This document shows, in pieces, positions 41,717-61,600 of a stretch of 64,000 nucleotides of DNA. Below the pieces are notes generated by a model that worked only from the letters and a program-made list of their open reading frames with translations, did no database searches and was not told where the DNA came from. This DNA comes from Oscillospiraceae bacterium (lineage in GTDB: Bacteria; Bacillota; Clostridia; Oscillospirales; Oscillospiraceae). The stretch is from positions 1 through 64,000 of the forward strand of contig JAJQBY010000040.1 of assembly GCA_021203045.1 (NCBI GenBank). Reading direction: 5' to 3'. The position numbers were made by a program, and so were the translations under genes. The number at the start of each line of letters is the position of its first letter. The stretch's first letter is position 1.

Positions 41717-42916
41717 ATGAAACCAATGAAGCTGACGCCAAAGACGGAGGCCCAGGCCCTCCTGCTGGACGCCTGGACCCTGACGGCGGAGGAGGAGACT
41801 ATCCCCCTGACCGCCTGCCGGGGCCGCGTCCTGGCAAGGAACATATTCGCCCAATATAACATTCCTGTGGTGCGGGCCTCCGCCATGGACGGCGTGGCCG
41901 TGAACGCAGCGGACTTCGCCGATGGCAAAAAGCCGGACTGCACGGGCTGGCGGCCCGGCCGGGAGTATTCCCGGGCCGATACCGGCGATGATTTTGACGA
42001 TCGCTATGACACGGTCATCCCCATCGAGCAGGTGGAGGTCCTGCCGGAGGGCGGTCTGATATTCGCCCCGGACACGGACATCCGCCCCGGCATGAACGTC
42101 AGGCCCTCCGGGTCCCAGGTAGAGAAGGCTTCCCTTCTCTGCAAAAAGGGCGTCCGCCTGACGGCACTGGATATCGCCGCCATCGGCATGGGGGGCTATG
42201 GAGCAGCCCCAGTCCTCCGCCGGCCGAGGGTAGCCTTTGTTCCCACGGGCAGCGAGCTGGTCCCCATAGGAGCGCCTCTCGCCCGGGGCCAGAATTTTGA
42301 CACCAACAGCCTGATGGCCGCCCTCCTGCTGGAGGAGATGGGCGCGAAGCCCATCCTCCGCCCCATCCACCGGGACGACCCGCAGGCCATCGAGCAGACG
42401 CTGAACGAGCTTCTGCCCCAGGCGGATATCATCATCCTGAACGCCGGCACGTCCAAGGGCCAGGAGGATTACTGCGGCCGCCTGTTGTGGGAACGGGGCA
42501 GGCTGCTGTTCAGCGGCGTGGCCGCCGTCCCGGGACGGCCCATGTCCGCCGCGGTCATTGATGAAAAAATGGTTCTGAACATCTCCGGCCCCGCCCTGGC
42601 CGCCTTTTACGCCCTGGACTGGGCCGTGAAGCCCCTGATATGCAAGCATCTGGGCATCCCCGTGCCGAAGCGCCGGACGGCGGAGGCGGAGCTGACCGCC
42701 CCCATGGGCGCGCCGCCCCTATCCATGTGCTGCATGCTCCGGCTCCAGCGCCAGGGGGACAGGCTTCTGGCCACGCCGCTTACCATGCGGGGCCCCGGCA
42801 GTGTGGGTTCCGGCGTCCTCCTGACCGCCGACGCCATGTACGCCACCATCCCCGGCCAGGAGCCGAAGGGCCCCGGCGATACCATCACCGTGGAGCTGCT
42901 GCGGGATATCCCCTGA
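41717..42916 (+). CDS. moeA: Molybdopterin molybdotransferase (MoeA)
   Basis: 399 residues. Inserts molybdate into adenylylated molybdopterin. The N-terminal signature is VVRASAMDGVAVNAADF (residues about 51-67). The MPT-binding domain has FVPTGSELVPIG and NAGTSKGQEDY. The usual LPGNPV loop reads ISGPALAAF here, a variant. The C-terminal beta domain is present. It would mature the molybdenum enzymes encoded nearby (xanthine dehydrogenase, transhydroxylase-like). No other cofactor gene is next to it. AAGGGAAGGAG is the ribosome site. Confidence 0.92.
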   Translation: MKPMKLTPKTEAQALLLDAWTLTAEEETIPLTACRGRVLARNIFAQYNIPVVRASAMDGVAVNAADFADGKKPDCTGWRPGREYSRADTGDDFDDRYDTVIPIEQVEVLPEGGLIFAPDTDIRPGMNVRPSGSQVEKASLLCKKGVRLTALDIAAIGMGGYGAAPVLRRPRVAFVPTGSELVPIGAPLARGQNFDTNSLMAALLLEEMGAKPILRPIHRDDPQAIEQTLNELLPQADIIILNAGTSKGQEDYCGRLLWERGRLLFSGVAAVPGRPMSAAVIDEKMVLNISGPALAAFYALDWAVKPLICKHLGIPVPKRRTAEAELTAPMGAPPLSMCCMLRLQRQGDRLLATPLTMRGPGSVGSGVLLTADAMYATIPGQEPKGPGDTITVELLRDIP

Positions 42917-44709: not shown

Positions 44710-45589
44710 GGATAACACCTCCCGCCCGCTCTACGCTTTTGAACAGGCAGCGCCGCAGCAGTTCCTGAGCCAGATAGCTCCTAAACTCCGCCTTGGCCCG
44801 CCAGCTCGTCCGGGGATGAACGTCCTCCCCGACCGCCCGGGCCATTTGCTCTATCGTCTCCGGGCAGACGGGCTGTCCCCGCCCCGCCGCCTCCGCCGCC
44901 GGGGCCCGCATCGGCACCGGCCCGGCCACGCCATAGGCGATGCGCACATCCTGAAGCACCTGCTTGTCGGCTGTCAGGCAGACGTTCACGCTGCATCCCA
45001 GGGTGGCGATGTCCATGGCGTTCCGCATGGCATATTTGATATACCAGCCGGCATAGCCCTCATAGGCCGCTTGCGGTATGGTCACGGCGGTCAATATCTC
45101 CCCCGGGCGGATATCCACCTGCCCGGCCCGGATATACCACCGGGCGGCGGGGACGTGCCGCACGCCCTCCGGCCCGGTCAGCTCCATTACACCGTCCCAG
45201 GCCAGCAGGGTGGCCCCTGTATCGGCGGAGGTAACGCCGTTGCAGACATTGCCCCCGATGGTACCGATATTCCGCACCTGAGGGCCACCCACCTGCCCCG
45301 CCGCATAGCCCAGAACAGGGACATGCCGCTTAATCAGCTCATTTTCCGATACATCTGTGAAGCTGGTCAGCGCTCCGATGCGGAGGGTGCCGTCCTCCGC
45401 CATGGAAACGCCCCGCAGCTCGTCTACGGTGTAAATACTTATCAGCTCGCACCCGGCCAGCTTTCCATCCCGCAGCTTGACAAGCTGATCGGAACCGCCG
45501 GCTATGATCTTTGCCTTCGGATGTGCCTGACGGAGCTTCACAGCCTCCGCAACTGAATACGCCTCATACAAGGCCGAAAAGTCAAACAT
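44699..45589 (-). CDS. xdhB: Xanthine dehydrogenase FAD subunit
   Basis: 296 residues from the ATG at 45589 (MFDFSALYEAY), which has GGAGGAGGGG upstream. FAD-binding motifs: AKIIAGGSDQLVKLRDGKL near residue 30 and GTIGGNVCNGVTSADT near 105. Overlaps the xdhA end by eight bases. It is the oxidant-side subunit, passing electrons to NAD or another acceptor. Member of the CoxM/XdhB family. Confidence 0.92.
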   Translation of the reverse strand: MFDFSALYEAYSVAEAVKLRQAHPKAKIIAGGSDQLVKLRDGKLAGCELISIYTVDELRGVSMAEDGTLRIGALTSFTDVSENELIKRHVPVLGYAAGQVGGPQVRNIGTIGGNVCNGVTSADTGATLLAWDGVMELTGPEGVRHVPAARWYIRAGQVDIRPGEILTAVTIPQAAYEGYAGWYIKYAMRNAMDIATLGCSVNVCLTADKQVLQDVRIAYGVAGPVPMRAPAAEAAGRGQPVCPETIEQMARAVGEDVHPRTSWRAKAEFRSYLAQELLRRCLFKSVERAGGVIHGV

Positions 45590-47867
45590 GGATAAGCCCC
45601 TCCTCCTGAAGTCGCTCAAAGAGCACATGAGGCGTCATAGGCAGATGGTCTATCTCCACTCCGGTGGCCTGCAATATTGCATTGCGGATGGCCGGCGCAG
45701 GAGATACGGCGGGAGGCTCTCCCAGGGCCTTGGTACCAAAGGGGCTGGTAGGCTCCGGATTTTCCACGAACAGCGCCCCCAGGTCGGGATGATCCATGGC
45801 AGTAGAGATCTTGTAGTCCAAAAGATTATTGTTCAGAGGGCGGCCGGTCTTTTCATCGAATTTCAGCTCCTCTCCCATGGCGTAACCGATGGACATGCTC
45901 ATGCCCCCGTGCACCTGGGCCTGGGCAAGCTGTGGATTGATGAGCGTGCCGCAGTCGTGGACATTCACGATATTCAAAACCCTCACCTTACAAAGGGGAA
46001 TATCCACCTCCACCTCCGCAAAGGAGCAACCGAAGGAATAGGCGTTGGACTTGACCTGGGTGGTATCCTCCGCCGTAATATAAGCGGCCCGTTCCATGCT
46101 GTAGGTGGCCTCCGTCGCCAGAGCCTCCAGGGTCATGATCGTCTCCCCATGGGAGACGATATTGCCGTCTCGCAAATCCAGCTCCTCCGCCGGAAGCTTT
46201 GTGAGCCAGGAGGCATAGGCCAGTATCTTTTCCCGGAACTGACGGCCCACGTTCGTAATGGCAAAGCCCTCCACATAGGTCTGGCGGGAGGCATAGGCCC
46301 CGGTGCCGTAGCCAGTCACATCCGTATCCTGGCAGGTGACAACGTGTACCTTTTCCACTGGCACGCCCACCACCTGGGCTACCATCTGGGTATAAGCGGT
46401 ATCCGCGCCCTGGCCGATCTCCGTCTCGGCGCACATATACTGCACCGAGCCGTCCTGATTGAGCATCATCCGGCTGGTGGTAGCCTCCAGGGATATGGGC
46501 CAGACGGCGGTGTTATACCAGAATATAGCCATCCCAACCCCCCGGCGCACCGGGCCGGACTGATTCTGGTAGGCCTTGTATTTCTCCTGCCAGCCGATAT
46601 ATTCCATACCCTTTTCCATGCACTGACCGTGGCTGTCCTGCCAGTTCACATTGCCGGTAAAAGCGTCCCGATATCCCACAGGCATCCGGTTTTTATTCCG
46701 CAGCTCAATGGGACTCATGCCGAGCATCTTCGCTATATCGTCCACATGGCTCTCCATGGCGAAGGAGACCTGGGGCATTCCATAGGCTCGCATGGCCCCG
46801 GCGGTGGGGGTATTGGTATAGACAGAATAGGCATCAAAATGATAGGCCTCGCAGGGATACATCTGCACAAAGCCATTGGTGGCCTTGGCCGCCGTGGAAT
46901 GACCGTGAGACGTATAGGCCCCCTGCTGGGAGTATTCCTCCATCCGGCGGGCCACAAAGGTCCCATCCCGGCGGAAGTATGTAACAAGATGGAATTTCCC
47001 TCCGTGACGCACCCGGTTATTCACAAAGGTCTCCTCCCGGGATACATCCAGCTTGACCGGACGGCCGTCGGTCAGCGTGGCAAGGTAGGCACACAGCGGC
47101 TCATACAGAGCGTCCTGCTTGTTGCCGAAGCCTCCGCCGATATAGGGCTTTATGACCCGTATCTCTCCCCAGGGGCGTCCCAGGGCCTGGCCCACGCAGC
47201 GGCGGACGATATGGGGGATCTGCGTGGAGGACAATATGGCTATCTTCCGTCCCTCTGTCCAGGCGCAGCAGATATGATTTTCTATGTGACAGTGCTGAAC
47301 GATGGGGGTCTCATACCATTTATCCACACACAACAGCCCCGGCTCGGCTATGGCCTTGTCCCAATCCCCGGCGCTGCCGGAGGTATGCTTCAGGATGTTG
47401 TTGGGATACTCCGGATGGAGCAGGGGCGCCCCCTCCTTGACGGCCTCCAGGGGATCGAGAACGAAAGGATAGGTCTCATACTCCGCCTTTATCAGCCGCA
47501 GGGCCCGCTTTGCGGCGATCTCATCCTCCGCAATGACGGCGGCCACGTCATCCCCGTAATACAGGGGCCGGTCTGTCAGCAGCAGCCGGTCGGCCACGTC
47601 CTGATGAGCCGGGTCAGTGCTCCAGGGGTGACCTGCGGTGGGAAAATAATACTTGGGCACGTCAAAGCATGTGACGATACGCACCACGCCGGGGACCTTC
47701 AGTGCCTCGCTGATGTCCAGTGAAAGTACTCTGCCGTTGGCCACAGTGGAGCGGAACACCTTTGCCACCAGGGCATCCCGGCTTATCAGATCTGCCGTAT
47801 ACTTGGCCCGGCCCATGGCCTTGTCCGGGCCGTCCACACGCTTCATGCTGACGCCTACTGCCTCCAT
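45582..47867 (-). CDS. xdhA: Xanthine dehydrogenase molybdenum subunit
   Basis: 761 residues from the ATG at 47867 (MEAVGVSMKRVDG) after GCGGGGGAT. Family motifs: the first half-domain GRAKYTAD; the pterin-binding IGGGFGNKQDA near 270; AMRAYGMPQ; and the catalytic-glutamate region GTKALGEPPAVSPAPAIRNAI near 720. Hydroxylates xanthine/hypoxanthine-type purines at a molybdenum-oxo-sulfido centre. The operon also holds guanine deaminase, which makes xanthine, so purine use is the likely role. Related hydroxylases act on nicotinate or other N-heterocycles and cannot be excluded. No maturation factor gene is in the operon. Confidence 0.92.
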   Translation of the reverse strand: MEAVGVSMKRVDGPDKAMGRAKYTADLISRDALVAKVFRSTVANGRVLSLDISEALKVPGVVRIVTCFDVPKYYFPTAGHPWSTDPAHQDVADRLLLTDRPLYYGDDVAAVIAEDEIAAKRALRLIKAEYETYPFVLDPLEAVKEGAPLLHPEYPNNILKHTSGSAGDWDKAIAEPGLLCVDKWYETPIVQHCHIENHICCAWTEGRKIAILSSTQIPHIVRRCVGQALGRPWGEIRVIKPYIGGGFGNKQDALYEPLCAYLATLTDGRPVKLDVSREETFVNNRVRHGGKFHLVTYFRRDGTFVARRMEEYSQQGAYTSHGHSTAAKATNGFVQMYPCEAYHFDAYSVYTNTPTAGAMRAYGMPQVSFAMESHVDDIAKMLGMSPIELRNKNRMPVGYRDAFTGNVNWQDSHGQCMEKGMEYIGWQEKYKAYQNQSGPVRRGVGMAIFWYNTAVWPISLEATTSRMMLNQDGSVQYMCAETEIGQGADTAYTQMVAQVVGVPVEKVHVVTCQDTDVTGYGTGAYASRQTYVEGFAITNVGRQFREKILAYASWLTKLPAEELDLRDGNIVSHGETIMTLEALATEATYSMERAAYITAEDTTQVKSNAYSFGCSFAEVEVDIPLCKVRVLNIVNVHDCGTLINPQLAQAQVHGGMSMSIGYAMGEELKFDEKTGRPLNNNLLDYKISTAMDHPDLGALFVENPEPTSPFGTKALGEPPAVSPAPAIRNAILQATGVEIDHLPMTPHVLFERLQEEGLIHV

Positions 47868-47926
47868 TCTATCCCCCGCCTTTCCTGAATATATTCTCTG
47901 CAGCCCGGTTTCACCGGGCATTCTGC

Positions 47927-49186
47927 CTATTCGCCTGCTACGTATTTTTCCTTGACCATGCAGCTATCACCCAAATAGATGAGCTTTTCAAACCGGGCCT
48001 CCATAGGCTCTCCCCCTTGGCAACTGACAGAATCATCCACCACCACCGCGTCGAACTCGTATCCAGGCTGGAAGGAGCCTACCTTTCCGAAGAAGGAACC
48101 GCCGCCCTCTGTAGCCATATAAAACGCCTCCTGGGCCGTGAGATAGGCCGGGTGGCTCTCGTCCAGCTGCCACAGAGCGCGGGAAACGCCGATGGTCTGA
48201 CGTATAACCTCCGCCATATCCAGGGTATGACCGCCGGATATATCGGAACCAAGGCAGGTATGCAGGCCCATATCCAAATATTTTCGCATGGGGGCTATGC
48301 CGCTGCGGACATTGGTGTTCGAGGTGGGACAGTGAACGACATACGCCCCCCGCTCCCGCATCAGTGCACATTCCTCATCGGTCATATAAATGCAGTGGGC
48401 CATCAGGGTGTTCGGGCCGAGAAGTCCGTTTTCATCGTATACCGCGGCATAGCTGGGACTATCCGGATGGAGCTGATGCACCCATTCGATCTCGTCCCGG
48501 TTCTCGTCCAAATGGCTCTGCAACGGCAGGCCAGTCTCTCCGGCCAGCTCTCCCAGCCCCTGCAAAAGCGCCGGAGAGCAGCTGGGAACAAACCGAGGCG
48601 TCAGGATAGGCTGAGTGCGCCGGAAGTGCTTTTCCTTTACCTGGGCCAGCCAGTCCCTGGTCTCCGCCAAGGAATAATCTGCGTCCCGCTCCCGGATGGA
48701 GTCGGGGGCATTGCTGTCCATATTCACCCGGCCCACAAAGGTTTTCAGGCCGGAGCGCTCCAGCTCCTCCATAAGCAGCACGGTGGCTTCTGTATGGGCA
48801 GTGGAAAATATGGCGGCGCGGGTGGTGAAGCTGCCGGCCAGCTCTGCCACCAATGCACCGTACACCTTTTTCGCAAAATCCAGATCCCGGAACATGGACT
48901 CCTCCGGATAGGTCAGCTCCTCCAGCCACTGAATGAGCTGCATATCCATTCCCCGGCCAAGATTCCTGTACTGTCCTGCATGGAGGTGCATATCACAGTA
49001 TCCGGGTATGGTGATAAAATCCCGGCAGTCGTTCAGCCTTATGCCGTTGAATTTGTCCGGCAGCCGTTCAAATATGCCTTCGCACAGGCCGTTTTCGTTG
49101 CAGACAGCAAAGCTGTTGGGCCGCAGGCACAGCCTTTCCGGCCCCTCCGTATATATAAAATTGCCCCATATGGCAAATGGTTCCAT
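47927..49186 (-). CDS. guaD: Guanine deaminase-like amidohydrolase
   Basis: 419 residues from the ATG at 49186 after GAAGGAGC. Metal-dependent amidohydrolase: HLHAGQ (first two His), QSHLDEN (third His), AHCIYM (fourth His) and GSDISGG (catalytic Asp) appear in order. The AGQYRNLGRGMDMQLIQWLEELTYPEE stretch matches guanine deaminases. It would convert guanine to xanthine, the substrate of the xdh enzyme encoded 59 bases downstream. SsnA-type aminohydrolases are related alternatives. Confidence 0.88.
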   Translation of the reverse strand: MEPFAIWGNFIYTEGPERLCLRPNSFAVCNENGLCEGIFERLPDKFNGIRLNDCRDFITIPGYCDMHLHAGQYRNLGRGMDMQLIQWLEELTYPEESMFRDLDFAKKVYGALVAELAGSFTTRAAIFSTAHTEATVLLMEELERSGLKTFVGRVNMDSNAPDSIRERDADYSLAETRDWLAQVKEKHFRRTQPILTPRFVPSCSPALLQGLGELAGETGLPLQSHLDENRDEIEWVHQLHPDSPSYAAVYDENGLLGPNTLMAHCIYMTDEECALMRERGAYVVHCPTSNTNVRSGIAPMRKYLDMGLHTCLGSDISGGHTLDMAEVIRQTIGVSRALWQLDESHPAYLTAQEAFYMATEGGGSFFGKVGSFQPGYEFDAVVVDDSVSCQGGEPMEARFEKLIYLGDSCMVKEKYVAGE

Positions 49187-49300
49187 AGTCTTGCTCCTTC
49201 TTATATGCTGCGATTGAATAACAAGCTCTCCTATATCGTCATTATAACACATTCCGTCTCCCAGGGACAGAGTATTTGGCTAATTTTTTGGCAGGGAGGG

Positions 49301-54982: not shown

Positions 54983-55855
54983 TTATTCCGCCTTTTCCAG
55001 ATAGGTGATTCCTACATAGTGGTCATGGTCGGTGCGCTCGCCCTCGTAGCGAACGGGCTTGAATCCGGGGTAGGTGATCTCCACCGTCCAGGTCTTTTCC
55101 TTGGGGAGATCCTCAAACTCATAGTCACCGGCCCAGTTTGTCTCCATCTCGTGGCTCTCGCCGGTCTCGGTGCAGGTGATTTTTACCTTCGCGCTGATGC
55201 AGACCTCCTCCAGCTCCTTGGGATAGGCCACCGTACCGGCCAGGAAGGCGCTGGGGATGTTCAGATGCACCACACTGGAGCCCATATTGCCCAGCGCCTC
55301 AAGCTGCGTCACCTTGTTTGCAGCGATCAGCTTGGAAATTTCGCTGTCCGGGTCGGCCAGGTCGCCGAATACCAGGGCCTGATTGGGGCAGGCCTCCACG
55401 CAGCGGGGTTCAAAGCCGGGATAATCCGGGTCGTCCAGCAGCTCGGCGCACATGGTGCATTTCTGGGGCAGGTTCAGCTCCTCGTTCCAATACACCGCAT
55501 GGATGGGGCAGGCGTCCACGATCTGCTTCTGGCCCACGGCCTTCTCCGGGTCGATGATGACGATACCGTCTGGCCGCTTATATGCGGCTCCGTCCTTGGC
55601 TGCCGCCACGCAGGCGGGGTTATCGCAATGGGAACAGGGAGTTGGAACGGTGGCGGTCTTGACCCGGCGCGTGTTGTCGCCTCTCTCCCATTCCACAATG
55701 TTCATCCAATACTGGCCCAGCTCCGGCTGGGATTTCGTCAGGGCGCTGTCCCAGCCGCAATGCTCGTCCTTGCAGGCCATAAAGCAGGCGTAGCAGGCCA
55801 TGCAACGGGCAGAATTGATGGCTATGCCGGGCTTTTTCATCGGTTTCTTCAGCAT
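54983..55855 (-). CDS. Transhydroxylase-like iron-sulfur subunit
   Basis: 290 residues. Residues 1-190 are a DmsB/NrfC-type ferredoxin domain but with exactly twelve cluster cysteines (CMACYACFMAC, CSHCDNPAC, DACP, CTMC, CVEAC), enough for three [4Fe-4S] clusters rather than four; CVAAAKDGA lacks the cysteine found in DmsB. Three clusters plus a C-terminal beta domain (about 200-290, KVKITCTETGESHEMETNWAGDYEF) is the known build of the small subunit of Pelobacter pyrogallol-phloroglucinol transhydroxylase. It starts one base after the large-subunit stop, with AAGGAGG inside that gene. Cytoplasmic; last gene of the operon. Confidence 0.85.
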   Translation of the reverse strand: MLKKPMKKPGIAINSARCMACYACFMACKDEHCGWDSALTKSQPELGQYWMNIVEWERGDNTRRVKTATVPTPCSHCDNPACVAAAKDGAAYKRPDGIVIIDPEKAVGQKQIVDACPIHAVYWNEELNLPQKCTMCAELLDDPDYPGFEPRCVEACPNQALVFGDLADPDSEISKLIAANKVTQLEALGNMGSSVVHLNIPSAFLAGTVAYPKELEEVCISAKVKITCTETGESHEMETNWAGDYEFEDLPKEKTWTVEITYPGFKPVRYEGERTDHDHYVGITYLEKAE

Positions 55856-55856
55856 C

Positions 55857-58595
55857 TTACACAGCCTCCTTTTTCAATATCTGTTCTCTCTCGCCCCAGA
55901 GAAGATCCGCCTCGGCAGAGGTGCGGATGGGACGGGCGGTCTCCAACTGCTGCTTATCCACTGCGTCCAGGATATGCTCGAAGCCCTGGCCGTAGTTGGG
56001 ATCGGGATCGCATTTTTCAATGTCGATATTGCAGCTGTAAGGGGCCATGGCGGGCACATAGTCGCCGATAAGGCGACCAGGAGTCAGGACGTTTATGCTG
56101 CCGCCCTTATCCCAGCTCATGTATTCGCCATAATTGATGGGGTTATAGATGCCGGAGGAGGTATAGGCGTGGATGGTCTCCGGGTTGAGCCGATAGGTGA
56201 CGCGGGCTACGCAAAGCACGCTGCCACGGTCGTTGAACAGGCGCACCACGTCGCCGTCCTTGATGCCCTTCTGCTCCGCCACCTTGGGGTTGATATGGCA
56301 GACCAGGTAGGGGTTGCCGTTTATGATGACGCGGTTTTTAGGTATCTCCCACAGCCACTTGGCGTGCTGGTTATAGTGGGTGTGGTAGTCAAAGCGGGGA
56401 TGGGGGGAGATAAGGCCGCAGGGGAACTTATCCGCCGACAGGGACTTGTGGCCCTCCCAGGAGTCCTGGTACTGGGGGATGGGGCGGCGGGCCTCATCGT
56501 CGGGCGCCCAGTAGGTAAGGGACTCGGACACAAACTCGAATTTGCCGGAGAAGGTACCCAGCTTGCCCTCCTCCTGGAACACCTTGTGGTTCATGGTGTC
56601 GCAGGGACGGTTCTCCGCGAACCACTGGAAGCCGGGGTAACGATCCCAATTTTCGATCAGGCCGGTCTCCGGGTCCACATTCTCCTCCTTATAGGAGACG
56701 GGCGGGATATAGTAGCCCTTCTTTTTGAAGTCCTCCCAGGAGATGTGCTTGGGCAGGTCGGAGAACTGCCAGAAGCGCTTGGCCCATTCCTCCTCCGTCC
56801 GGCCCTCGGTGAAGCGCTCGCCCCAGCCGAGGCGGGCCGCCACCTGGGAGAATATCCAGAAGTCGGAGCGGGAATCCCACAGGGGTTCAATGGCCTTGTC
56901 CTGATAGACGATGACCTGCCAGGAGTTGCCGGTCTGGGAGTGGGAGCAGTAGCCGCCGTTACCGGAGTTGCCCACCTCGCCGATGTCTATCCGCTCCAGG
57001 TTGGAGCAGGCAGGCAGGATCACGTCCGCATGACGGGTTTCCGGGGTCATAAAGATGTCCTGGTTTATCACAAACTCCAGCTCCGGGCTTTTATACATCT
57101 TGGCCCATTTGTTGGTGTCCAGCATAGTACCGAAGAAGGAACCGCCGTAGCGCCAGAAGCAGTGAACCTTGTTATAGCCGGGGGCGGGGTATACATGGCG
57201 GGTAAATTCCTGATCCACGCCGCCGCCGCAGAAGCCCTCCCCGTACCACTCATAATGGCCGTCCAGAATGGCGTCCGGCAGATTGGGGCGGTACAGCACC
57301 TGCTCCACGGAGTTTACGGGCACGTCGTCGCAGATGGGCGCACCGGCGATGGAGGACAGGGGGTCGGAATAGCCGCCAAACCAGAAGTTATAGTTCATGG
57401 GGCCGCCGCAGGCGGGAGACCAGAAGGCGCGGCCCGGCTTGCCCATGCCCTGCATGGCGAACAGCAGGGTCATCAGACGGGCGTACTCCGTGCCGTTGGA
57501 GTGGCGGCACGCACCGCCGAATCCACCGCGCATACCCGAACCGCCGGTGGTGACGGTGCTGGCCCAGCGCCGGGCGATGGCCTTGATGTCCATGGCAGGA
57601 ACCAGGGACAGCTCCTCCGCCCAGCGGGGGGTCTTGGGGGTGCCGTCCGGGCCGAGGCCCAGGATATGATCCTCAAACTCCTTGAAGCGGTGGCCGTGCT
57701 GCTTTACGTATTCCTTATCGTATGTCCCCTCCGTAATCCACACGTAGGCAATGGCCTCCAGGATAGCGGAGTCCGTGCCCATGCGGGGGCCGATCCATTT
57801 GTCGGCGTGCTTGACGGAGGTATAGTTGTTGAAGGGGTCGATATAGATAAACTCGATACCCATCTCCTTCATCCACCAGCGCCACAGGGCGGATTCCTGG
57901 GCGGAATAGCCGCCGCGGCTGGTGTCCGGGTCAGTGGACCAGCAGATGATGGTCTCGGCGTTCTGCATGGCCATTTCCAGCATATCATAGGGTTCCGGGC
58001 CGCCCAAACGCCAGTAATAACCGTAGGAATGGGGCGTGCCCCAGTGGAAGCCCTCCCAGGAGTCCGGGTTATCCGCGATGCGGGTGTAGCCCATCATGGA
58101 GAAAAACCGCTTGAACAGGGAAATCTTATAGCCCACCAGACCCCAGCTATGGTGGGAGGAGGTGCAGGCGGTGATGGTCTCCTTGCCATAGGTCTTTTGC
58201 AGACGCTTGATTTCCCGGGTCACCAGGCTCAAAGCCTCATCCCAGGAGGCGCGGCGGTAGCCGGATTTGCCCCGGTTTTCCGTGTTGCGGTTCTTGCCGT
58301 CCGGGGTCTCCACAAAGTCCTCCCGGATCATGGGGTATTTCAGCCTGTCATAGGCGTAGGTCTTATCCCTCTCGCAATAGCCCAGCAGGGACATGGTAGT
58401 CTTGCGCTGGGGGGTATACTGCTTGCCGCGGGCCTTGATGACCCAGCCCGCGGGGTCGTCGTCCGTCAGGACGATGGGACGAACACGGCGGATAACGCCG
58501 TTATAGGTATGCAGGGTCATGGGGCCGCCCACGCATACGCTGTGGGTAATGCGCTCGTCCTTGCTGACGGAACGCATGGAAACTTTCTCAGCCAT
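55857..58595 (-). CDS. Transhydroxylase-like molybdopterin enzyme, large subunit
   Basis: 912 residues of the DMSO-reductase superfamily. There is no Tat signal and no N-terminal cysteine motif for an extra [4Fe-4S] cluster. Near residues 148-180 are HHSWGLVGY and NPDSW. With a constant offset of about four residues, His148, Tyr156, Asp178, Ser179 and Trp180 fall on the active-site residues I recall for Pelobacter transhydroxylase (His144, Tyr152, Asp174, Ser175 as Mo ligand, Trp176). A tyrosine (NYNFW, 402) lies near the expected Tyr404. That enzyme moves hydroxyl groups between polyphenols without net redox change. Relatives include acetylene hydratase and gut catechol dehydroxylases, so the true substrate here is open. 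AAGGAGG precedes the start. Confidence 0.85.
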   Translation of the reverse strand: MAEKVSMRSVSKDERITHSVCVGGPMTLHTYNGVIRRVRPIVLTDDDPAGWVIKARGKQYTPQRKTTMSLLGYCERDKTYAYDRLKYPMIREDFVETPDGKNRNTENRGKSGYRRASWDEALSLVTREIKRLQKTYGKETITACTSSHHSWGLVGYKISLFKRFFSMMGYTRIADNPDSWEGFHWGTPHSYGYYWRLGGPEPYDMLEMAMQNAETIICWSTDPDTSRGGYSAQESALWRWWMKEMGIEFIYIDPFNNYTSVKHADKWIGPRMGTDSAILEAIAYVWITEGTYDKEYVKQHGHRFKEFEDHILGLGPDGTPKTPRWAEELSLVPAMDIKAIARRWASTVTTGGSGMRGGFGGACRHSNGTEYARLMTLLFAMQGMGKPGRAFWSPACGGPMNYNFWFGGYSDPLSSIAGAPICDDVPVNSVEQVLYRPNLPDAILDGHYEWYGEGFCGGGVDQEFTRHVYPAPGYNKVHCFWRYGGSFFGTMLDTNKWAKMYKSPELEFVINQDIFMTPETRHADVILPACSNLERIDIGEVGNSGNGGYCSHSQTGNSWQVIVYQDKAIEPLWDSRSDFWIFSQVAARLGWGERFTEGRTEEEWAKRFWQFSDLPKHISWEDFKKKGYYIPPVSYKEENVDPETGLIENWDRYPGFQWFAENRPCDTMNHKVFQEEGKLGTFSGKFEFVSESLTYWAPDDEARRPIPQYQDSWEGHKSLSADKFPCGLISPHPRFDYHTHYNQHAKWLWEIPKNRVIINGNPYLVCHINPKVAEQKGIKDGDVVRLFNDRGSVLCVARVTYRLNPETIHAYTSSGIYNPINYGEYMSWDKGGSINVLTPGRLIGDYVPAMAPYSCNIDIEKCDPDPNYGQGFEHILDAVDKQQLETARPIRTSAEADLLWGEREQILKKEAV

Positions 58596-58610
58596 TCACA
58601 TCTATCCTCC

Positions 58611-59132
58611 TTACTTTACTTCTACCATCTGGCGGGCATACTCGGAGCGGGGGTCAATCTCCACCATCGTTCCGACATACTTGCCGTCCTTGCGCTCAAA
58701 GCAGCGCATATCAAAATCCTCAATAACGGGTATCCAGAAGACCCGTCCGTCCGGCCCCTGATAGTGCTTGCCCATATGGAATTGGTGCTGCAGCATTTCC
58801 ACCGCGCCGCCGGGAGCGTCTGCCCGCTTCTGGGCCTCGGCATAATGCAGGTTCAGGAAGCTGGGGTTCACCACGCCGTAGCGCTCCCAGCGCATAGGTC
58901 CGATGTCCTGCCAGTCCTCCGGCATGGAGCGGATGGCCTCGATGATGCACTCGTACACGTCCGTGGGGGGCATACCGCAGCCCTCAAAGTTTTCATACCA
59001 GACCCGGAAGGCGTTGATATGCTCGCTGGGATGGTCTTTGACTGCCTCCTTCACCTTGGCGAAAAGCTCCTCCTTCGTCATGGTGACAAGGCCCTCCGGC
59101 AGATGCAGAATATATTTTTTAGTAAGCTCCAT
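58611..59132 (-). CDS. Operon protein of unknown function, 173 residues
   Basis: Soluble, no signal peptide or membrane segment. Start supported by GGAGAGGGAGAT. N-terminal part is helical (MTKEELFAKVKEAVKDHPSEH); the middle is rich in aromatic and acidic residues (FRVWYENFEGCGMPPTDVYECIIEAI, PEDWQDIGPMRWERYGVVNP); the last third has HQFHMGKHYQGPDGRVFWIP. I do not recognise the family. It lies 15 bases upstream of the large subunit and 12 bases after the 105-residue ORF, so it is part of the enzyme operon and may be an extra subunit or assembly factor. Confidence 0.75.
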   Translation of the reverse strand: MELTKKYILHLPEGLVTMTKEELFAKVKEAVKDHPSEHINAFRVWYENFEGCGMPPTDVYECIIEAIRSMPEDWQDIGPMRWERYGVVNPSFLNLHYAEAQKRADAPGGAVEMLQHQFHMGKHYQGPDGRVFWIPVIEDFDMRCFERKDGKYVGTMVEIDPRSEYARQMVEVK

Positions 59133-59144
59133 ATCTCCCTCTCC

Positions 59145-59444
59145 TCATCGAATCACGTTGTTCCCGACCAGGTCGCCGATTTCGCCAGTCGGGCCGCTCT
59201 GGCGCTGGTCGTCATAGCCGTAGCTCCAGTCCACGGCCAGATCGTAGGACGTTACAAGCTTTGCCTCGCCAAGAAGCACCCCGGTGCCGTAAAACTCGTC
59301 CCGGAAATTCTTCTCCGCCAGGGCCTTTGCTTCCTCCTCGCTGGCCGCGATAACCGTGGTCTGGGCCGGAGGGCAGAACAGGTAGTCCGGCTCGGTGGGC
59401 TTTTCACGCTGGGTCTTCGCCGCCTCATAGATATATTTTTTCAT
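59145..59444 (-). CDS. Operon protein of unknown function, 99 residues
   Basis: I use the ATG at 59444 (MKKYIYEAAKTQ), which has GAGAGGGGCGAGG upstream; the track start six codons earlier would overlap the Nudix gene. Residues 28-50 (AQTTVIAASEEEAKALAEKNF) look like the small beta-alpha unit found in diverse phage/accessory proteins that handle residue-level sensing, but this is not a firm match. No catalytic motif. Between the Nudix gene and the 173-residue gene in a tight operon. Confidence 0.7.
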   Translation of the reverse strand: MKKYIYEAAKTQREKPTEPDYLFCPPAQTTVIAASEEEAKALAEKNFRDEFYGTGVLLGEAKLVTSYDLAVDWSYGYDDQRQSGPTGEIGDLVGNNVIR

Positions 59445-59458
59445 GTCCCTCGCCCCTC

Positions 59459-59923
59459 TCAATACATTCTCACGTCGGGGATGACGCGGCCGTTAATCCA
59501 TGGGTCGTACTTCGCCATGAAGTTCTTGTCGTCCCCGTCAAAATCGTACTTTCCAAGCTCCGAGGGATGCACCCAGCACATCTCGGTATAGATGTCGCTC
59601 TTCGGCTGGGTCTGCCAGGTGTTCACGGCCTCGTAATAGTTGTGGTAGTCGCATCTGGTGTTGGTGTTGTGGGTGATGTTGCCGTTGAGGATATGCTCGG
59701 AATAGCCGTCCTGGGGGCGCTTGTGGCCCACCATGGTGCATTTGCCCACGCTCACCTTGATACCCAGGGTCTCCCACGCAATGCGCTGGCAGGCCTCCTG
59801 CGCGGTCTCATTGGTGCGCTGGCGGCCTGTGGGGAACGTCCAGGTTCCCTCCGGGGTCTTCCCGATAAGCACCCGGCCCATAGGCCCAGCGATGTTTTGA
59901 ATCAGCACTGATATGTAATTCAT
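59459..59923 (-). CDS. Degenerate Nudix protein in the Mo-enzyme operon
   Basis: 154 residues with a Nudix-type layout: GRVLIGKTPEGTWTFPTGR then the Nudix box GRQRTNETAQEACQRIAWETLG. The canonical box is GX5EX7REUXEEXGU. Here the first Glu and the Arg are kept, but the REUXEE part reads RIAWET, losing two of the three metal-binding glutamates. Catalysis as a pyrophosphatase is therefore doubtful and a binding role is possible. A later aromatic/acidic region (DIYTEMCWVHPSELGKYDFDGDD) is extended. GGGGGAG precedes the start. Confidence 0.78.
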   Translation of the reverse strand: MNYISVLIQNIAGPMGRVLIGKTPEGTWTFPTGRQRTNETAQEACQRIAWETLGIKVSVGKCTMVGHKRPQDGYSEHILNGNITHNTNTRCDYHNYYEAVNTWQTQPKSDIYTEMCWVHPSELGKYDFDGDDKNFMAKYDPWINGRVIPDVRMY

Positions 59924-59936
59924 AAGCTCTCCCCCC

Positions 59937-60134
59937 TTACAGCGTGTACTGGCCGGGGGCCGGGGTATAGCCCTGGGTCTCCAGCTCCTGAGCGACCCTC
60001 TCCCGGAACTGGCGTACCGTCTCCATGTGGACGTCCCGGTCGATGCGACAGACCTCCTGACCGTCCTCCATGGCCACCGCCCACTCGGTAAAGCCCTGCC
60101 GGGTGCTCCGGCAGTAAAAGCGGTATGTTTTCAT
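59937..60134 (-). CDS. Operon protein of unknown function, 65 residues
   Basis: Small soluble protein, MKTYRFYCRSTRQGFTEWAVAMEDGQ...; a beta hairpin followed by a helix (METVRQFRERVAQELETQG) is likely. Its ATG overlaps the stop of the 142-residue gene by four bases (ATGA) and has AAGGAGGAAC upstream, so translation is coupled. Thirteen bases before the Nudix gene. Not recognised. Confidence 0.7.
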   Translation of the reverse strand: MKTYRFYCRSTRQGFTEWAVAMEDGQEVCRIDRDVHMETVRQFRERVAQELETQGYTPAPGQYTL

Positions 60135-60559
60135 TCGTGTTCCTCCTTGTCTTGCTCCTCATATGGGGCCATAAAATCCGTGTCCTCCGCCGGAAGCGTC
60201 CCCAGCATATCCATCAGGCGGATGATGCCGGTCTCCGCCGCCACCATGACACCCATCATGTCCATATGGGGTTTAAATTTTATCTCAAAAAGATAATCCG
60301 CCGCCGCCGGAAGATTTTTCAGCATGGCCGTGTTGCGCTCGTTTATCTCCCAGTCCTTATGTCGGCCCTCCTCCGCGTCCATCTTGTGAATGAAGCACTG
60401 ATACCGGCCTCCATAAAGAAAGGTATACATGATTTCCATGCCGGAAACGACGGCCACCATGTTTCCCGCCTGGATGGAGTTCATCAGCTTGTCCCCCTCC
60501 TTACCCAGGGGGCCGATCTCCACATCGTTGTCGTGTTCCCGTGCTCTTGTCTCTGCCAT
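60131..60559 (-). CDS. First gene of the Mo-enzyme operon, unknown function
   Basis: 142 residues. Start after TTGGAGGTGAG. Charged N-terminus, then LMNSIQAGNMVAVVSGMEIMYTFLYGGRYQCFIHKMD and a helix-rich, Met-rich second half (FKPHMDMMGVMVAAETGIIRLMDMLGTL), with an acidic tail. No membrane helix or known motif. It is the promoter-proximal gene, so it is made in good amounts; a sensor, chaperone or extra subunit are all possible. Not recognised. Confidence 0.7.
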   Translation of the reverse strand: MAETRAREHDNDVEIGPLGKEGDKLMNSIQAGNMVAVVSGMEIMYTFLYGGRYQCFIHKMDAEEGRHKDWEINERNTAMLKNLPAAADYLFEIKFKPHMDMMGVMVAAETGIIRLMDMLGTLPAEDTDFMAPYEEQDKEEHE

Positions 60560-60617
60560 GACTCACCTCCAAGCCGGTAGTATGATAAGCTTTACACATT
60601 TTTATCAAGTCAATCTT

Positions 60618-60646
60618 AATATACACTTTACAAATTCCGCTGTCAA
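60618..60646 (-). promoter_or_regulatory. Promoter of the transhydroxylase-like operon
   Basis: Minus strand TTGACA, exactly 17 bases, TATATT. The leader before the first gene is about 50 bases. Confidence 0.8.
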
Positions 60647-60674
60647 TGGTAATATAGAAAATATTTTTTCCATT

Positions 60675-60689
60675 ATAAACATCTTTTAT
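60675..60689. promoter_or_regulatory. LysR box (T-N11-A)
   Basis: ATAAA-CATCT-TTTAT, a perfect inverted repeat containing T-N11-A, the LysR consensus. It lies 30 bases upstream of the -35 of the leftward operon, the usual recognition-site position, and within the lysR leader, so it could activate the operon and repress the regulator. Confidence 0.65.
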
Positions 60690-60715
60690 CATTGTTCAAC
60701 CCGGAGGGTATCTTC

Positions 60716-61600
60716 ATGGACATCACACAGCTTCGTTACTTCATTTCCGTGGCCCAAACCCTGAATTTCACAGAGGCCGCCCGGCGTTCCGGGGTGACAC
60801 AGCCGCTGATAAGCCACCACATCGTCGAGCTGGAAAAACAGCTGGGAGGCAAGCTGTTTCTGCGTAGCCGCCACCAGGTCACGCTGACCGACGCGGGACG
60901 GCGGTTTCTCCCGGCGGCGATGGAGATCGTGGAGCTGGCGGATAAAGCCGTCTTTCAGCTTCATCAGGACCAGCAGGGCAAATCCGGCCACTTGGCCATC
61001 ACCAGCCTGACCACCTCCAGCGCGGTGCTGGCAGAGGCGCTGGCCGCCTTCGCCGCAAAGTATCCCGATATCACCGTGGATATCGACGTGACCCCCGGCC
61101 CAAAGCAGAGTCTTGCCATGAACGACAATAAATACGACTTCCATTTTGCAGCCCTGGAAATGGTCCCCGTGGGCGAGACCTATGATTATGTGGTCACACA
61201 CAGCGACAGCCTGTGCGTGGTGTTTCCCACAAACCATCCTCTGGCAAGCCAGCCCCTGGACTTTGCGGCGCTGAAGGACGAGCGGTTCATCTCCACCGCC
61301 CCATCCGACAGCCCCGCCATGTATGACCGGGTGCGAGAGGTCTGCCAGGCCAGAGGGTATATTCCCAATGTGGTCTATCAGTATGACCGGGTGGAGGCGG
61401 TAGTCCTATCTGTGGGCGCAGGGCTTGGCATCTCCATCCTGCCGGAGGCCCTCAGCCGGGTATTCTATGCCGAAAACGTCACCTTCAAGCGCATCCCCGG
61501 CGAGGACAGCGTCCGCCCCTATGTGGTCGCCTGGCAGAAAAACCTGACGAACCCCGCCGCCGCTCTGTTCGTAGAGACCGTGCGGGAGCTGTTCGGGTAA
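60716..61600 (+). CDS. LysR-type regulator of the transhydroxylase-like operon
   Basis: 294 residues from the ATG at 60716 (MDITQLRYFISVAQ), which has CGGAGGGT upstream. N-terminal winged HTH: LNFTEAARRSGVTQPLISHHIVELEKQLGGKLFLR. The effector-binding domain (about 90-290) is complete, with GAGLGISILPEAL. It is divergent from the operon with 156 bases between them, the classic arrangement for a regulator that senses the operon substrate (here presumably an aromatic or polyphenol). Monocistronic. Confidence 0.9.
   Translation: MDITQLRYFISVAQTLNFTEAARRSGVTQPLISHHIVELEKQLGGKLFLRSRHQVTLTDAGRRFLPAAMEIVELADKAVFQLHQDQQGKSGHLAITSLTTSSAVLAEALAAFAAKYPDITVDIDVTPGPKQSLAMNDNKYDFHFAALEMVPVGETYDYVVTHSDSLCVVFPTNHPLASQPLDFAALKDERFISTAPSDSPAMYDRVREVCQARGYIPNVVYQYDRVEAVVLSVGAGLGISILPEALSRVFYAENVTFKRIPGEDSVRPYVVAWQKNLTNPAAALFVETVRELFG

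Follow-up and report, generated by a model that had tools for sequence, protein, structure and literature searches.

The window, a stretch of 64,000 nucleotides from a gut or rumen Oscillospiraceae bacterium, encodes a two-subunit molybdenum enzyme of the RhL/PgtL (resorcinol hydroxylase/pyrogallol transhydroxylase) family within the DMSO reductase superfamily. It is probably a cytoplasmic, serine-ligated bis-MGD enzyme of the non-redox transhydroxylase type, which would convert pyrogallol to phloroglucinol and thereby feed the PGR-DPGC-TfD-TAL pathway. Transhydroxylation is a rare molybdenum chemistry, and to our knowledge only one transhydroxylase (TH) is well characterised. The branch described here is separate, is widespread in gut and rumen Oscillospiraceae, and occurs in genomes that also encode every step from phloroglucinol to short-chain acids. 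Tannin and gallate breakdown in Oscillospiraceae thus becomes testable gene by gene, five unstudied proteins are named as candidates for functional study, and a linked paralogue, whose active site is mutated, could bear on the first formation of the tetrahydroxybenzene co-substrate.

Large Subunit and Active Site

The region from 57900 to 58595 (minus strand), on which an earlier note had commented, encodes residues 1-232 of a 912-residue open reading frame (58595..55857, minus strand). This is the large, molybdenum-bearing subunit, with Pfam domains PF21423, PF00384, and PF01568, of which the N-terminal AhtL-like PF21423 scored above its cut-off. In a search against all solved structures, the best match was the pyrogallol hydroxytransferase of Pelobacter acidigallici (4v4c_A), aligned over residues 15-865 with 694 bits and an E value of 2.7e-207, far beyond chance. 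DMSO reductase came next with 215 bits, and acetylene hydratase reached 38.9 bits. Identity to 4v4c_A in the renumbered alignment was 44.8% (371/828).

The earlier note had stated that a serine in the N-terminal part, together with its neighbors and a nearby histidine and tyrosine, keeps a fixed offset of four residues from the Pelobacter active site. The offset proved exact, with H144, Y152, D174, S175, and W176 of 4v4c_A paired with H148, Y156, D178, S179, and W180, respectively. Further pairs were retained at Y404 (Y409), F468 (F455), and Y560 (Y549), and three were altered, namely R153 to K157, W354 to F359, and C557 to S544. We take H144, D174, S175, and Y404 to be the catalytic residues of the Pelobacter enzyme, and R153, W354, and C557 presumably belong to its substrate pocket. 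S179 also aligned with the serine in the GDY-S stretch of DMSO reductase (1dms), which we take to be the molybdenum ligand of that enzyme. S179 is accordingly the predicted ligand here, as the note had proposed, and the alignment pointed to no cysteine or selenocysteine ligand. Grouping with polysulfide or arsenate reductases was likewise not seen, the protein scoring with transhydroxylase.

Inspection of the N-terminal sequence of the large subunit revealed no CxxCxxxC motif, the sole cysteine before residue 74 being C21, which agrees with the proposed loss of the N-terminal iron-sulfur cluster; no twin-arginine or Sec signal was found there either.

Small Subunit

The adjoining gene (55855..54983, minus strand) encodes a ferredoxin-type protein of 290 residues with a C-terminal carboxypeptidase-regulatory-like domain, as in the TH small subunit (4v4c_B), which was its best match among solved structures. 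Twelve cluster cysteines had been counted earlier, and all 12 (residues 18, 21, 24, 28, 74, 77, 82, 116, 133, 136, 152, and 156) paired with cysteines of 4v4c_B. The other three cysteines lie outside the motifs and the fourth-cluster motif is absent, so that the subunit is predicted to hold three 4Fe-4S clusters.

Position in the RhL/PgtL Family

The serine-ligated, cytoplasmic RhL/PgtL family of molybdenum enzymes has already been defined (PMC10100899). A tree of 50 sequences, rooted on TorA and built from family members in the window's own genome, in 148 relatives, and on plasmids and contigs of public genomes, resolved into three branches, with TorA as a distant outgroup. The PgtL branch contains the Pelobacter TH and an orthologue 77% identical to it, encoded in a related gut genome (G090, L080:5632-10782) directly downstream of a UbiD decarboxylase. 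A gallate decarboxylase would be the expected partner, and the two genes are likely a gallate-to-phloroglucinol pair. The A clade comprises the window enzyme and others from gut and rumen Oscillospiraceae and from sediment and soil bacteria, and in its broad sense includes a Dehalococcoidia protein (L125). The B clade includes a paralogue from the window's own genome. Orthology of the window enzyme to PgtL was rejected: the tree placed it in the sister clade, and an AU test rejected a group confined to its subclade, the Pelobacter TH, and the G090 orthologue (p = 0.0004). The enzyme is therefore a member of the RhL/PgtL family without being a PgtL orthologue.

Comparison of residues across the family showed that H144, D174, S175, and W176 (TH numbering) are kept in nearly all members, those of the B clade included, and that Y152, Y404, and Y560 are kept in the A and PgtL branches and absent in B. 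The residues equivalent to TH 153, 354, and 557 differ from subclade to subclade, and we consequently regard the catalytic core as constant and take the specificity shell to vary. Like TH, the A-clade small subunits have no fourth-cluster motif; the loss also occurs in some B members, so that cluster number separates A from B imperfectly. More than one family gene can be present in a genome. Two further PgtL-branch enzymes, 50-51% identical to TH, are encoded on Burkholderia and Salipiger plasmids (L147 and L148) in proteobacterial clusters with FAH-family and VOC proteins, and the second carries isoleucine in place of D174.

The paralogue of the window's own genome, termed paralogue B, lies on a different contig (L007:7565-11084, contig C104) and consists of a large subunit of 909 and a small subunit of 255 residues. 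It keeps the equivalents of H144, D174, S175, and W176, has lost those of Y152, Y404, and Y560, and its small subunit has the cysteines for four clusters, which makes it a better candidate for redox chemistry than the window enzyme. In many relatives, about 5 kb or less separates a B gene from that of the window-type enzyme.

Operon Organization and Accessory Proteins

The window operon runs, on the minus strand, in the order orf142 (60559..60131), orf65 (60134..59937), a Nudix-fold protein of 154 residues (59923..59459), orf105 (59462..59145, with ATG at 59444 a likelier start than TTG at 59462), orf173 (59132..58611), large subunit, and small subunit, with a Shine-Dalgarno-like sequence at nearly every gene. 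At its head stands a divergent gene for a LysR-type protein (60692..61600, plus strand, likely start ATG 60716), which is probably the regulator of the operon, and orthologues of which adjoin the operon in several relatives. The AT-rich intergenic region between them (60560..60715) presumably serves as promoter and operator. A mechanical open reading frame of 1263 residues antisense to the operon (55800-59591, plus strand) is almost certainly not a gene. Elsewhere in the window lies a purine/molybdenum group with a MoeA-like gene (41717-42916, plus strand), the xanthine dehydrogenase gene xdhA (45582-47921, minus strand), whose product scored above its NCBIfam cut-off, and a guanine-deaminase-like gene (47927-49252, minus strand).

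The five small genes, among which orf142 and orf173 encode accessory proteins and orf65 and orf105 small conserved ones, are conserved at the protein level and follow one A subclade, being present in the sets searched only beside its enzyme. For instance, 14 of 149 relatives have orf173, invariably with the large subunit gene immediately after it, and a class-level sample of 391 genomes yielded no further carrier. The Nudix box is degenerate: it reads R-[IVAL]-A-W-E-[QT] in 25 of 25 orthologues, with a single metal-binding glutamate left of the three in REUxEE, and the protein is thus probably not an ordinary pyrophosphatase. AlphaFold models of orf142 (pLDDT 81) and orf173 (pLDDT 91) matched no PDB fold at E ≤ 0.001. 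Their matches to sliding clamps (E about 0.008, TM about 0.2) were discounted, and Pfam matches to members of either family stayed at chance level.

The C-terminal tail of the large subunit, 'PNYGQGFEHILDAVDKQQLETARPIRTSAEADLLWGE' (residues ~866-912), is an extension of about 40 residues relative to the Pelobacter TH. Such tails are longer where the accessory genes are co-encoded than where these are absent, a pattern that would fit physical docking of the accessory proteins. These proteins may be additional subunits, may act as docking partners, or may assist in assembly.

Linkage to the Phloroglucinol Pathway

Phloroglucinol degradation in Clostridium scatologenes involves the gene set PGR, DPGC, TfD, and TAL (PMC10470551). 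In four loci of the window's A subclade (L041, L042, L111, and L112) and in one of another A subclade (L055), the large and small subunit genes adjoin a thiolase-PGR-DPGC-TfD-TAL set, the proteins being by type a thiolase, an SDR, a cyclase-family protein, a 3-hydroxyacyl-CoA-dehydrogenase-like protein, and a keto-acid cleavage enzyme. The identity of the SDR as PGR and of the cyclase as DPGC follows from the gene set and its synteny with that of PMC10470551; a PDB search with these two proteins named neither PGR nor DPGC among the matches. The TAL of these clusters, read against the same paper, has glycine in place of the diagnostic Trp16 of the C. scatologenes enzyme. A soil Bacillota member (L124) carries a DPGC homologue and a thiolase beside the enzyme. 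Other relatives show the order B large and small subunits, five small genes, A large and small subunits, thiolase, TAL, moeA, and moaA, with mobA or a molybdate-transport-like ATPase nearby, and the clusters of several relatives also carry mobA, moeA, moaA, and a molybdate-transport-like ABC ATPase.

The association extends to gene content. DPGC was present in 20 of 149 relatives, and a TH-family gene accompanied it in all 20, compared with 8 of the 129 others (Fisher p about 1e-18, uncorrected for shared ancestry). The window genome, too, carries DPGC alongside the window enzyme, with its pathway genes on contigs other than the window's. Its DPGC (80% identical to that of L042) lies with TfD (71%) and a CoA-transferase (L071), its TAL (81%) with a thiolase (L072), and a UbiD/UbiX pair of hydroxyarylic-acid decarboxylase type on a further locus (L149), the UbiD sharing 62% identity with that beside the PgtL orthologue in G090. 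The PGR candidate is weaker, at 45% identity to the cluster SDR. It belongs to a trio of SDR, 3-HAD-like, and keto-acid cleavage proteins (L073:6883-9855, contig C133) that share 33-45% identity with those of the phloroglucinol pathway and could be the source of PGR or else serve a parallel route of ring degradation. A gallate-decarboxylase-like UbiD was found in just 9 of the 28 TH-positive relatives, so the supply of pyrogallol is not assured.

Proposed Function and Alternatives

By analogy with TH, the substrate phenol would be joined to a hydroxylated co-substrate at a Mo-Ser179 center with H148, D178, and Y409, and a single hydroxyl would pass from one polyhydroxybenzene to another without net redox change, while the three clusters of the small subunit might hold or shuttle electrons inside the enzyme. 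Pyrogallol derived from gallate or tannins would thus yield phloroglucinol, which would then be reduced and ring-opened via PGR, DPGC, TfD, and TAL to acetyl-CoA products. The pathway context points to phloroglucinol as the likely product and to pyrogallol as the likely substrate. Computation establishes the family and clade, the active-site match, the three-cluster small subunit, the operon structure, and the linkage to and co-occurrence with the pathway, whereas the exact substrate, the direction of the reaction, a requirement for tetrahydroxybenzene as co-substrate, and the roles of the accessory proteins are inferred. The earlier expectation of phenol chemistry in the cytoplasm gains support from the missing signal peptide, the molybdenum cofactor genes in the same clusters, and the pathway linkage. 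Of the three reactions it had offered, hydroxyl transfer toward phloroglucinol is favored, with hydration and catechol dehydroxylation less supported, given the low acetylene hydratase score and the grouping reported in PMC7028382.

Because the enzyme belongs to a sister clade and three pocket positions have changed, its substrate may differ from that of PgtL. The most credible of the alternatives, though unlikely overall, is a TH-family enzyme that acts on a different polyphenol or with different regiochemistry (hydroxyhydroquinone or tetrahydroxybenzene isomers) and carries out a single step in a series of transhydroxylations leading to phloroglucinol, perhaps jointly with paralogue B. It would account for the separation from PgtL, for the subclade-variable changes at TH 153, 354, and 557 around a fixed core, and for the presence of several family genes in one genome with paralogue B often as neighbor. 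Against it, the catalytic core and the three-cluster small subunit are the same as in TH, and genomes with an A-clade enzyme and DPGC mostly have no PgtL-clade gene, so that another phloroglucinol-forming enzyme would be required if pyrogallol is used. An extended version can be entertained tentatively, with slightly less credence: a new hydroxyl-transfer branch forming a larger complex, in which up to five undescribed proteins would dock via the clade-specific tail, the substrate would be a polyphenol other than pyrogallol, and paralogue B would perhaps supply a tetrahydroxybenzene primer.

The remaining alternatives depart from transhydroxylation altogether. A redox hydroxylase or dehydroxylase of the resorcinol hydroxylase type, adding or removing an aromatic hydroxyl with water and an external electron carrier, would be in keeping with the placement of RhL, by family description, in the same serine-ligated cytoplasmic family (PMC10100899), but is improbable, as the fourth small-subunit cluster is lost as in TH and kept in the genome's own paralogue B, and the operon has no redox partner gene. 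Gut bacteria reductively dehydroxylate catechols (PMC7028382), and habitat and superfamily would suit a catechol dehydroxylase or an acetylene-hydratase-type enzyme; the chance of this is very slight, considering the acetylene hydratase score of 39 bits against 694 for TH, the grouping of catechol dehydroxylases with acetylene hydratase and apart from Pht (PMC7028382), and the lack of a Sec/TAT signal and of a membrane partner. Least probable of all is an S- or N-oxide reductase resembling DMSO, TMAO, or biotin sulfoxide reductases. Such relatives are serine-ligated and the NCBIfam models bisC and dmsA do match, but at scores far under their cut-offs (287.6 vs 1017.55 and 266.7 vs 777.7), and the TH-specific His, Asp, and Tyr residues and three-cluster small subunit are present, with TorA a distant outgroup. 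These last two identities were rejected on the structure-search scores and PMC7028382.

Comparison with Known Systems

The transhydroxylase-type window enzyme most closely resembles AthLS/PgtLS of P. acidigallici (4v4c), with which it shares full-length homology of both subunits, the His/Asp/Ser/Trp/Tyr active-site set, a cytoplasmic location, the lack of an N-terminal cluster, and a 12-cysteine small subunit with a C-terminal beta domain. It differs in its sister-clade position at 44.8% identity, in R153K, W354F, and C557S, and in the C-terminal extension and five extra operon genes. RhLS of Azoarcus anaerobius, compared by description, belongs to the same serine-ligated, cytoplasmic, phenol-acting family (PMC10100899), but, unlike a TH-type enzyme, RhL needs an electron acceptor. 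The gene set of the C. scatologenes phloroglucinol pathway has homologues that lie next to the enzyme in relatives and that the window's own genome also contains, with differences in the TAL residue and in PGR identity; the steps after phloroglucinol were characterised there and the transhydroxylase step was not (PMC10470551).

TH-like genes have been predicted in anaerobes before. In sediment Chloroflexi, putative pyrogallol hydroxytransferases with multiple TH-like complexes per genome were reported as predictions only (PMC3971608, PMC4959651), and the Dehalococcoidia protein L125 falls into the same broad A clade as the window enzyme, on a contig without the accessory genes. In polyphenol-treated rumen microbiomes, the pyrogallol transhydroxylase genes pgthAB were expressed together with PGR genes (PMC12203004), and the parts of that study available to us describe neither clade resolution nor accessory genes. 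New here, relative to these systems, are a separate A clade tied to a phloroglucinol operon, its dedicated accessory genes, and a linked B paralogue with an altered active site.
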